From assembly GCA_006739055.1 (NCBI GenBank), contig AP019702.1:2877388-2941387 (forward strand): a DNA stretch of 64,000 nucleotides, written 5' to 3'. Below the pieces are notes generated by a model. That model searched no databases. It saw nothing but the letters and a program-made list of their open reading frames with translations, and was not told the origin of the DNA. Positions within the stretch are counted from its first letter, which is position 1. Each line of letters begins with the position of its first letter. This document shows positions 25,281-28,439 of the stretch, piece after piece. This DNA comes from Allostella vacuolata (GTDB lineage: Bacteria; Pseudomonadota; Alphaproteobacteria; ATCC43930; Allostellaceae). A program made the position numbers and the translations under genes.

Positions 25281-26042
25281 ATGGTGACGATGACCCGCTA
25301 TGGCTGGATTCGCCTCGGGATCGTGGTGGGCTTCTTCGGCTGGCTGGAGGCGATCGCGCGCCTCGGCTTCGTCAAGCGCACCACCCTGATCCCTCCTTCG
25401 GAAATGGCGACGTCGCTGGTCGACATCCTCGCCAGCGGCCGGATGAACCACGACATCGAGGCGACGCTGCTGACGGTGGCCGCCGCGCTGTCGTCGGCTG
25501 TGACCGTCGGCTTCGTGGCGGGGATCATCCTGCACCGGCTGCCGCCCCTCAGGCGCCTGATGGACCCGCTGTTCGCCGCCTACTATGCGGTGCCGCACTT
25601 CGTCTTCTATCCGATCTTCATCGTGCTGTTCGGCATGACCCGGGTGCCGCTGGTGATCCTGGGCTTCCTGTTCGCCGTGGTGGCGATGATCATCAACACC
25701 ATGAACGGCCTGGACCGCATCCCGCGGGTGCTGCTGAAGGTGGCGCGGACCAACCGCCTGGGACCGGTGCAGACGGCGTGGTACGTCGTGCTGCCGTCGA
25801 CCGCGCCCTATCTCTTCACCGGGGTCAAGCTGTCGGTCGCCTATTCCTTCATCGGCGTCATCGCCGGCGAGTTCATCCTGTCGGGCATCGGCATCGGCCA
25901 CCAGATCGCCTACGCCTACGACAATTTCGACAACCGCACGATGTACGGCCTGCTGCTGTTCATCCTGACCCTGGTCACGACCGTGAACATGGGCTTGTGG
26001 AGCTACGAGCAGCGCCTGCTGCGCCGCCGGTCGAGGGGGTAG
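25281..26042 (+). CDS. ABC transporter permease 1
   Basis: A 253-residue inner-membrane protein with about six hydrophobic segments and a BPD_transp_1/SsuC-type layout. The EAA loop region is VLLKVARTNRLGPVQTAWYVVLPSTAPYLFTGVKL (positions about 150-185). It forms half of the translocation channel with the next gene, which starts 6 bases after its stop. ATG 25281 and ATG 25290 are both possible; GGCAGG lies closest to 25281. Confidence 0.9.
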   Translation: MVTMTRYGWIRLGIVVGFFGWLEAIARLGFVKRTTLIPPSEMATSLVDILASGRMNHDIEATLLTVAAALSSAVTVGFVAGIILHRLPPLRRLMDPLFAAYYAVPHFVFYPIFIVLFGMTRVPLVILGFLFAVVAMIINTMNGLDRIPRVLLKVARTNRLGPVQTAWYVVLPSTAPYLFTGVKLSVAYSFIGVIAGEFILSGIGIGHQIAYAYDNFDNRTMYGLLLFILTLVTTVNMGLWSYEQRLLRRRSRG

Positions 26043-26048
26043 GGCGAT

Positions 26049-26786
26049 ATGCGCGACCGTATCGTCCATATCGGCAGCGTGCTGCTGTTCGTCTTCGTGG
26101 TGTGGCAGGTGCTGCACTGGATCACCGGCTCGATCGCCGTTACCTCCCCGGCGGAGACGGTGAGCCGCCTGGCGGAGATGATGCGCACGCCGGAATTCTG
26201 GGGCCATGCGCAGGAGACGCTGGCCGCCTTCTCCCAGGCGCTGGCGATCGCGCTGGGCGGCGGCCTGGTGATCGGCCTGCTGCTGGGCGGCTGGCGGCCG
26301 GCCGGCCTGGTGTTCGAGCCGATCCTGATCGCGATCTACTCCATCCCCAAGGTCACGCTCTACCCGGTCATCCTGCTGCTGTTCGGCCTCGGCCTCTCGG
26401 CCAAGGTCGCGTTCGGGGCGATCCACGGCATCATCCCGGTGGCGCTCTTCACCCTGAACGCGGTCCGCTCGCTCAACCCCGTCTACATGCGCGCCTCGCG
26501 CTCGATGCGCCTGACGAGCGGCCAGACGGCGCTGCGGATCCTGATCCCGGCGGCGCTGCCGGAGATCGTCACGGGATTCCGCGTCGGCTTCTCGCTGACG
26601 CTGCTCGGCTCGCTGATCGGCGAGCTGTTCGCCTCGCAGCGGGGGCTGGGCTTCCTCATCATGCGGGCGGTCAACGTCTACGACGTGAAGACCATCTTCG
26701 CCGTCACCCTGCTGATCGCCGCCATCGCGGTCGCCGTCAACTCGGCCATGCTGGCGCTGGACCAGCGGCTGCACCGGCGGATGTGA
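26049..26786 (+). CDS. ABC transporter permease 2
   Basis: A 245-residue inner-membrane protein, similar in design to the preceding permease, with an EAA loop at MRASRSMRLTSGQTALRILIPAALPEIVTGFRVG. The two permeases are distinct, so the channel is probably a heterodimer. No ATPase gene follows; the next genes are a toxin-antitoxin pair. The energising subunit must be encoded elsewhere or shared with another importer. Confidence 0.9.
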   Translation: MRDRIVHIGSVLLFVFVVWQVLHWITGSIAVTSPAETVSRLAEMMRTPEFWGHAQETLAAFSQALAIALGGGLVIGLLLGGWRPAGLVFEPILIAIYSIPKVTLYPVILLLFGLGLSAKVAFGAIHGIIPVALFTLNAVRSLNPVYMRASRSMRLTSGQTALRILIPAALPEIVTGFRVGFSLTLLGSLIGELFASQRGLGFLIMRAVNVYDVKTIFAVTLLIAAIAVAVNSAMLALDQRLHRRM

Positions 26787-26809
26787 GGAATGCGAAGGGA
26801 CCTTCCATC

Positions 26810-26830
26810 GGGTAGTAGTGTTGCCTACCC
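26810..26830. promoter_or_regulatory. Candidate ParD operator, 6-bp inverted repeat
   Basis: GGGTAG (26810-26815) and CTACCC (26825-26830) are perfect inverted copies with a 9-base spacer, ending 22 bases before the parD start. ParD-type RHH antitoxins bind such repeats to repress their own promoters, so this is the expected operator. Confidence 0.55.
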
Positions 26831-26852
26831 TCAGGGCGAGGAGGTCGATCCG

Positions 26853-27137
26853 ATGGCCAATGTCGAGAAGGTTAGTGTCGCCCTTACCCCGGAAATGGCG
26901 ACGATGGTGCGGGAAGTGGTGCAGACCGGCGAGTATGTATCGGCGAGCGAAGTCATGCGGGAGGCCCTTCGCGAATGGAAACTTCGAAGGGCACAGCGCG
27001 CCAAGGCCATCGAGGAACTGGGGCGGTTGTGGGATGCGGGCATCAATAGCGGGCCCACCATTGATGGCGAGGAAGCCTTCGCCCAAATCCGGGAAAGTCT
27101 TGAAGCCAAGATTGCCGAGCGCCGCGCACCGGAATGA
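26853..27137 (+). CDS. parD: ParD-family antitoxin
   Basis: A 94-residue antitoxin. The N-terminal ribbon-helix-helix is KVSVALTPEMATMVREVVQT with GEYVSASEVMREALREW, the classic ParD/CC2985 pattern, and the C-terminal half is an acidic, toxin-wrapping helix region. ATG 26853 has GAGGAGG upstream. It overlaps the parE start by 4 bases (ATGA), the usual coupling. It is intact although its toxin gene is interrupted. Confidence 0.93.
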   Translation: MANVEKVSVALTPEMATMVREVVQTGEYVSASEVMREALREWKLRRAQRAKAIEELGRLWDAGINSGPTIDGEEAFAQIRESLEAKIAERRAPE

Positions 27138-27418
27138 CGTATCGCCTGCGGCCGCAGGCCAAGTCGGACATCGAGGCTGTGGTTTTCTACATCGCCCAGG
27201 ACAATCCTTGGGCTGCCCGACGCTGGCACGAGCAGATCTTTCGCTGCTGTCAGAGAATTGGAGCGATGCCAGGAATGGGCGTCGCTCGATCGGAGGTCCG
27301 GCCTGGAATTCGAAGCTTTGCCCTGGGCAACTACCTGATTCTGTAGCGGATAATCGGCGATTGCGCGGAGATCGTTCGGGTCGTGCACGGCGCGCGGCAG
27401 TGGGAGGAACTGCTCTAG
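27134..27418 (+). pseudogene. parE: parE toxin gene interrupted by a nonsense codon
   Basis: The frame starts MTYRLRPQAKSDIEAVVFYI, the ParE/RelE opening, and runs to FALGNYLIL, then meets TAG at 27344-27346 after 70 codons. Without that stop the same frame continues with RIIGDCAEIVRVVHGARQWEELL to TAG at 27416-27418, giving 94 residues, the normal ParE length. The stop falls exactly where ParE proteins have a tyrosine (LILYRI), so a single change from TAC or TAT to TAG explains it. The lost C-terminal strand carries conserved HGARQW, so the truncated product is probably inactive. Confidence 0.85.
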
Positions 27419-27437
27419 GAGCGGCCTTCAGCGGCGG

Positions 27438-28439
27438 TCACACGACCCGTCCCCGCACCGGAAACGACGGGTCGGTATAGCCGGGCGTCGAGGCGTGGCC
27501 GGGCGGCACCAGCCGGTCGACCAGGGCCTCGTCGTCGGCATCGATGGCGACGGTCGTGGCGGCGAGGTAGCCCTGCCACTGCTCGGCCGTGCGCGGGCCC
27601 GCCAAGACCGCGGTCACCAGCCGGTTGGCCAGCACCCAGGCGGTGGCGAAGGCGACGGGGGTGGTTCCCTTCGCCGCGGCGCGCTCGGTGATCGCGGCCG
27701 CCAGATCGAAGGATTCCGGCCGGAACTCCGTCTCCAGCAGCCGCTTGTTGCCGCGAGCCGCCCGGCTGTCGGCCGGCGGGGCGGCATCGGCGCGGTACTT
27801 GCCGGTCAGCACGCCGCGGGCGAGCGGGCTGTAGGGGACGACGCCCAGGCCGAGCGCGCGGCACGCCGGCAGGTGCTCGGCCTCGTTGCCGCGGGTCGCG
27901 AGGTTGTAGAGCGGCTGGCTGACGACGGGGGCGGGCAGGCCCATGCGCCGGGACAGCCGCACGGCCTCCGCCAGGCGCCAGCCGTCGAAGTTGGACAGGC
28001 CGAGGTAGCGCACCTTGCCCGCCCGGATCGCGTCGCCGGCCGCGGCCAGCGTCTCCTCCAGCGGCGTCTCGCGGTCGTCCGCGTGCAGGTACCAGATGTC
28101 GACATGGTCGGTGCCGAGCCGGGCCAGGCTGTCCTCGATCGCCCGCAGCATCCATTTCCGGCCGAGGCCCGAGCGATGCGGGCCGGGGCCCATCGCCAGC
28201 CCGACCTTGGTCGCCAGGACCCAGTGGCGGCGGTCGCCGGCGATGGCTGCACCCAGCATCCGCTCCGACCCGCCCTGGCCGTAGAAATCGGCCGTGTCGA
28301 TGAAGTTGACCCCGGCGTCCCGCGCCATGCCGACGATGCGGGTCGCCTCGTCGGCGGCGGTCGGCTGCGAGAACATCATGGTGCCGAGGCAGATGCGGGA
28401 GACCTGGAGGCCGCTGTCGCCGAGCCGTCGAAATTGCAT
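27438..28439 (-). CDS. Aldo/keto reductase
   Basis: A 333-residue NADPH-dependent oxidoreductase with a TIM barrel. Seen: LGTMMFS, the catalytic Asp-Tyr in DTADFYGQGGSE, Lys in LATKVGL, and the catalytic His in WYLHADD; the C-terminal NADP site includes VLAGPRTAEQW. Resembles the YajO/Tas-like AKR subgroup, with broad carbonyl substrates. The start at 28439 (MQFRRLG) begins right at the domain; upstream codons to 28574 overlap the SDR gene on the other strand and look non-coding. It is divergent from the SDR gene. Confidence 0.92.
   Translation of the reverse strand: MQFRRLGDSGLQVSRICLGTMMFSQPTAADEATRIVGMARDAGVNFIDTADFYGQGGSERMLGAAIAGDRRHWVLATKVGLAMGPGPHRSGLGRKWMLRAIEDSLARLGTDHVDIWYLHADDRETPLEETLAAAGDAIRAGKVRYLGLSNFDGWRLAEAVRLSRRMGLPAPVVSQPLYNLATRGNEAEHLPACRALGLGVVPYSPLARGVLTGKYRADAAPPADSRAARGNKRLLETEFRPESFDLAAAITERAAAKGTTPVAFATAWVLANRLVTAVLAGPRTAEQWQGYLAATTVAIDADDEALVDRLVPPGHASTPGYTDPSFPVRGRVV

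Follow-up and report, generated by a model that had tools for sequence, protein, structure and literature searches.

Analysing a 64,000-nucleotide stretch of the Allostella vacuolata genome (contig AP019702.1; hereafter the window), we found a parDE locus that is probably a decaying type II toxin-antitoxin module with a dead toxin. The forward-strand frame at 27134-27418 would encode a 94-residue ParE were it not for a TAG at 27344-27346 (MTYRL...ALGNYLIL-stop-RIIGDCAEIVRVVHGARQWEELL-stop), in agreement with an earlier note on this DNA, which had described a toxin cut by one nonsense codon. A complete ParE of a type II ParDE module has about 90-100 residues, and here the TAG follows residue 70. 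The note had also held that the codons past the TAG retain ParE sequence, and this was borne out. Translated with an X at the stop, the frame scored 65.7 bits against Pfam ParE_toxin over profile positions 1-89 of 89, compared with 48.7 bits over positions 1-68 for the 70-residue part alone, indicating that the post-stop part adds real ParE signal and not chance similarity. None of 15 conserved columns behind the stop is changed, and 2 of 23 invariant columns are departed from in the part before it. Reassignment of the stop codon or its routine read-through was rejected, as TAG also closes a neighbouring ABC permease gene (26040-26042), shortly ahead of the next gene's start at 26049.

The antitoxin gene, which the note had called intact, is indeed so: its frame of 94 amino acids carries no stop, and its product matches ParD_antitoxin (PF03693; 23.4 bits) and RHH_1 (PF01402; 21.7 bits), both above the cut-off, can be aligned to chain A of 5CEG and departs from 1 of 42 invariant columns. 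Window ParD is 64-81% identical to the ParD proteins of close relatives, its DNA-binding strand is nearly unchanged, and W60 and D61 are present as in Mesorhizobium opportunistum ParD3. The antitoxin gene stands first and overlaps the toxin gene, the parD stop and parE start sharing ATGA at 27134-27137. Judged from its residues, this ParD may have kept the capacity to bind uninterrupted ParE proteins of the subfamily.

Table 1. Features of the parDE locus (window positions)
Feature	Position	Strand	Basis
Acquired parDE cassette, 0.65 kb, between two convergent host genes	26785..27441		Similarity break to closest congener; low GC3
parDE operator site GGTAGTAGTGTTGCCTACC, changed core between retained outer arms	26811..26829	+	Comparison with 12 relatives
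Intact parD antitoxin gene (94 aa; ribbon-helix-helix product)	26853..27137	+	Pfam ParD_antitoxin and RHH_1
parE, translated part, 70 residues, including TAG	27134..27346	+	Start overlaps parD stop codon (ATGA)
In-frame TAG	27344..27346	+	Column is Tyr in 12/12 close relatives
parE, untranslated remainder, 23 codons and original stop, still ParE-like	27347..27418	+	15 invariant or near-invariant columns, 0 departures

Scanning 84,980 species genomes for ParE homologues yielded 11 proteins with full-length identities of 54-71% to window ParE. They come from Xanthobacter, Aquabacter, Mesorhizobium, Phyllobacterium, Prosthecomicrobium and Hoeflea; a twelfth, intact and 69% identical, is encoded on a Pelagibacterium plasmid. 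All 12 are uninterrupted (about 94-96 residues), all carry tyrosine at the column of the stop, as had been expected beforehand, and all 12 loci have parD in the same position, indicating that the 70-residue form reflects a lesion rather than a stable variant. A conserved short ParE, the outcome for which the earlier note had proposed a comparison of relatives, was thus excluded, since none of the 12 nearest homologues is short. The locus therefore carries what marks a pseudogene or decaying module, namely a disabling lesion absent from homologues. The subfamily is patchy, since no homologue turned up at E <= 1e-18 among 384 further genomes drawn from across the class. Viral contigs, when scanned, yielded no relative, and a phage-borne origin was rejected.

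To relate the stop to the fold, we used the intact Xanthobacter homologue, which is predicted as b-a-a-b-b-b-a (pLDDT 90) and matches the solved ParE structures 6x0a, 5ceg and 3kxe, the M. opportunistum ParE toxins being closest. The stop column lies inside its third strand (residues 67-74), which belongs to the core sheet. Window ParE in its truncated form of 70 residues is predicted with a helix hairpin (two helices) only, the pLDDT being below 50 from residue 56 on and 39-48 over the last 20 residues. In M. opportunistum ParE3/ParE2 the pocket round ParD Trp60 is formed by R59, A62, L73, E75, E89 and V91, of which R59, E75 and E89 are described for ParE3 (PMC7669267). These residues align to window positions 56, 59, 70, 72, 79 and 81, and the stop removes three of the six (72, 79 and 81); a single numbering offset accommodates the letters of all six, with K12, also given in PMC7669267, off by one. 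Removal of 10 C-terminal residues renders M. tuberculosis ParE2 non-toxic (PMC4906023), and Caulobacter ParE truncations lose toxicity too, possibly via stability (PMC11925232). Because of the predicted loss of fold and pocket and of these truncation precedents, we infer strongly that window ParE has lost its toxicity, presumably along with its ability to fold. The helix hairpin of the short form might still touch ParD.

The earlier note had further described the operator as intact, which holds for its outer arms only. All 12 relatives carry a 19-base site, GGTRGTAANCTTGCCTACC, at a distance of 41-75 bases upstream of parD, and its counterpart in the window lies at -42. The outer arms GGTAG...CTACC are retained there, whereas positions 8 and 10 of the core depart from bases shared by 12/12 relatives, and TTGC, found just before the operator in 9 of the 12, is changed; self-complementarity is 10/19 in the window versus 14/19 in the consensus. 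Since the operator core has changed and the DNA-binding strand of ParD has hardly done so, repression and expression of the window parDE are probably altered. The relatives' TTGC is placed like a -35 element and may belong to a promoter; a mechanical scan for a sigma-70 consensus promoter found none. The operator changes point to a locus that is decaying as a whole, beyond the loss of its toxin. Across the relatives, the 19-base operator is conserved in 12 loci from several alphaproteobacterial families, mostly with TTGC directly before it.

Similarity to the closest congener, G001, ends at 26784 and restarts at 27442. The segment in between is flanked by an ABC permease gene, the last of an ABC-transporter operon, and by a convergent aldo/keto reductase gene, and its GC3 (parD 0.68, parE 0.73) is below that of the neighbours (0.93-0.97). 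The module is missing at the corresponding site in three congeners: G001 has a different insert of 2.4 kb there, and no match was found in G003 or G002. A TAG seen within the ParD match of G002 proved to be the ordinary stop of that gene. Composition and distribution thus mark the parDE cassette as a horizontal acquisition. No direct repeat of 8-14 bases shared by the two cassette ends, as a target-site duplication would leave, was detected. By eye, the 2.4 kb insert in the G001 slot (G001:C1:2952900-2957000) includes two genes, one for a membrane protein resembling YihY and one that is aminotransferase-like, which suggests that the gap between operon and reductase gene is a landing site that the host tolerates.

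The stop had been called recent, and a bound can be put on its age. The 15 invariant or nearly invariant columns behind it hold 32 nonsynonymous sites, and with none of the columns changed, neutral divergence since the stop is below about 0.09 substitutions per site (95% bound). The mutation is recent only in the sense of this bound, which does not establish extreme recency, because the nearest congener itself differs by ~10% over the flanking transporter genes. Tree branch lengths are similar for ParE (0.28) and ParD (0.24); together with the undecayed ParD, this would be expected if the stop is recent and equally if ParD has stayed under selection.

We propose that a small parDE cassette arrived by horizontal transfer between the end of the ABC-transporter operon and the convergent aldo/keto reductase gene, and that one nonsense mutation then struck parE in the part coding for the third core beta strand. 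Its product of 70 residues would be missing half the sheet, half the ParD Trp60 pocket and the C-terminal segment required for gyrase poisoning and, because of these losses, would most likely be unfolded, degraded and non-toxic. ParD, encoded whole, would be left as an orphan antitoxin and DNA-binding protein, probably free of selection. Released from addiction, the locus would be drifting, and the changes in its operator core and promoter region suggest as much.

The earlier note had proposed both anti-addiction and decay and left the choice open. Were ParD selected to neutralise plasmid-borne ParE toxins of its subfamily, the host's own toxin being dispensed with, one would expect what is seen here, a whole antitoxin with W60 and D61 in place, which ParE3-type binding requires (PMC7669267), and the intact Pelagibacterium ParE shows that such a plasmid toxin exists; a chromosomal ccd of Erwinia chrysanthemi offers a demonstrated precedent, as reviewed in PMC2654758. 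However, a single plasmid record among 72,556 carries a ParE of >60% identity, the changed operator and promoter region run contrary to the maintained expression that this explanation predicts, and a recent stop accounts for the conservation of ParD equally well. The host's three other ParE proteins are remote from window ParE (best 33%, with no closely related copy found in the genome) and, where examined, sit beside their own RHH antitoxin genes. The altered operator and the rarity of a plasmid target make us lean towards decay as the better reading, and we regard anti-addiction as unlikely. A variant of this explanation, in which ParE has been broken repeatedly in the genus with ParD kept (the window locus and the two G003 loci described below) and the orphan ParD is selected for an anti-addiction or regulatory role, is improbable.

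If the TAG were a sequencing or assembly error, the module would be an ordinary intact parDE, and the rest of the gene, with no conserved column altered after the stop, looks just as such an error would leave it. The change is a substitution where there is no homopolymer, though, in a single-contig 5.83 Mb assembly of 99.65% completeness, making it an uncommon type of error, and we consider this quite unlikely. Highly implausible is a functional 70-residue protein, a non-toxic ParE fragment that would bind ParD and tune repression as a co-repressor or sponge: the helix hairpin falls within these residues and few of their invariant columns are altered, yet in the prediction the whole beta sheet is gone, three of the six pocket residues are missing, and the short form occurs in none of the 12 relatives. 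Decay of the module with loss of the toxin is thus the reading that we retain.

Among known systems, M. opportunistum ParDE2 and ParDE3 (PDB 6X0A, 5CEG) share with the window the two-gene order, a gap-free ParD alignment over residues 1-70 and the fold of the intact ParE homologues; unlike window ParE, which stops after residue 70, both their toxins are intact. The situation of the window, with ParD whole and the adjoining parE disrupted on the chromosome of an alphaproteobacterium, is cited in PMC7354431 for a parE pseudogene locus of Caulobacter crescentus, which is a different locus from that of the window. Decay of type II modules is likewise cited (PMC2654758, PMC7354431) for ccdO157, decaying in E. 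coli, and for the frameshifted yacB of Shigella, the latter also with an inactivated toxin and a retained antitoxin; as cited there, these differ in toxin and antitoxin families and in type of lesion. The Erwinia chrysanthemi chromosomal ccdAB, in the review of PMC2654758, resembles the window locus in having a chromosomal antitoxin that could neutralise a plasmid toxin, but activity is shown there, whereas the plasmid target of window ParD is uncommon and its role putative. Orphan antitoxins have been proposed to act in anti-addiction, and a high share of them resemble remnants of degraded modules (PMC7354431). Toxin loss with a kept antitoxin is thus already described in the accounts of PMC7354431 and PMC2654758, and the window adds one more case: a clean, single-lesion example of chromosomal toxin-antitoxin decay that changes little alone. 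Selection on the lone antitoxin is the prediction that separates anti-addiction from drift, and strain sampling could test it with this locus.

Among 78 ParE-domain matches listed from 43 genomes of the order, three have an internal stop, indicating that broken ParE is uncommon but not rare there. Two loci of the congener G003 also have an intact ParD followed by an incomplete ParE. At G003:C558 (L037:1501-1996) the ParE frame has an internal TGA, which could be an assembly fault, since about nine residues separate it from the end of the contig. At G003:C64 (L035:1501-1905) ParD is 53% identical to that of the window, and the ParE-like frame, which scores 17 bits with Pfam, below the cut-off, is cut after about 39 residues and adjoins an unrelated gene on the opposite strand.
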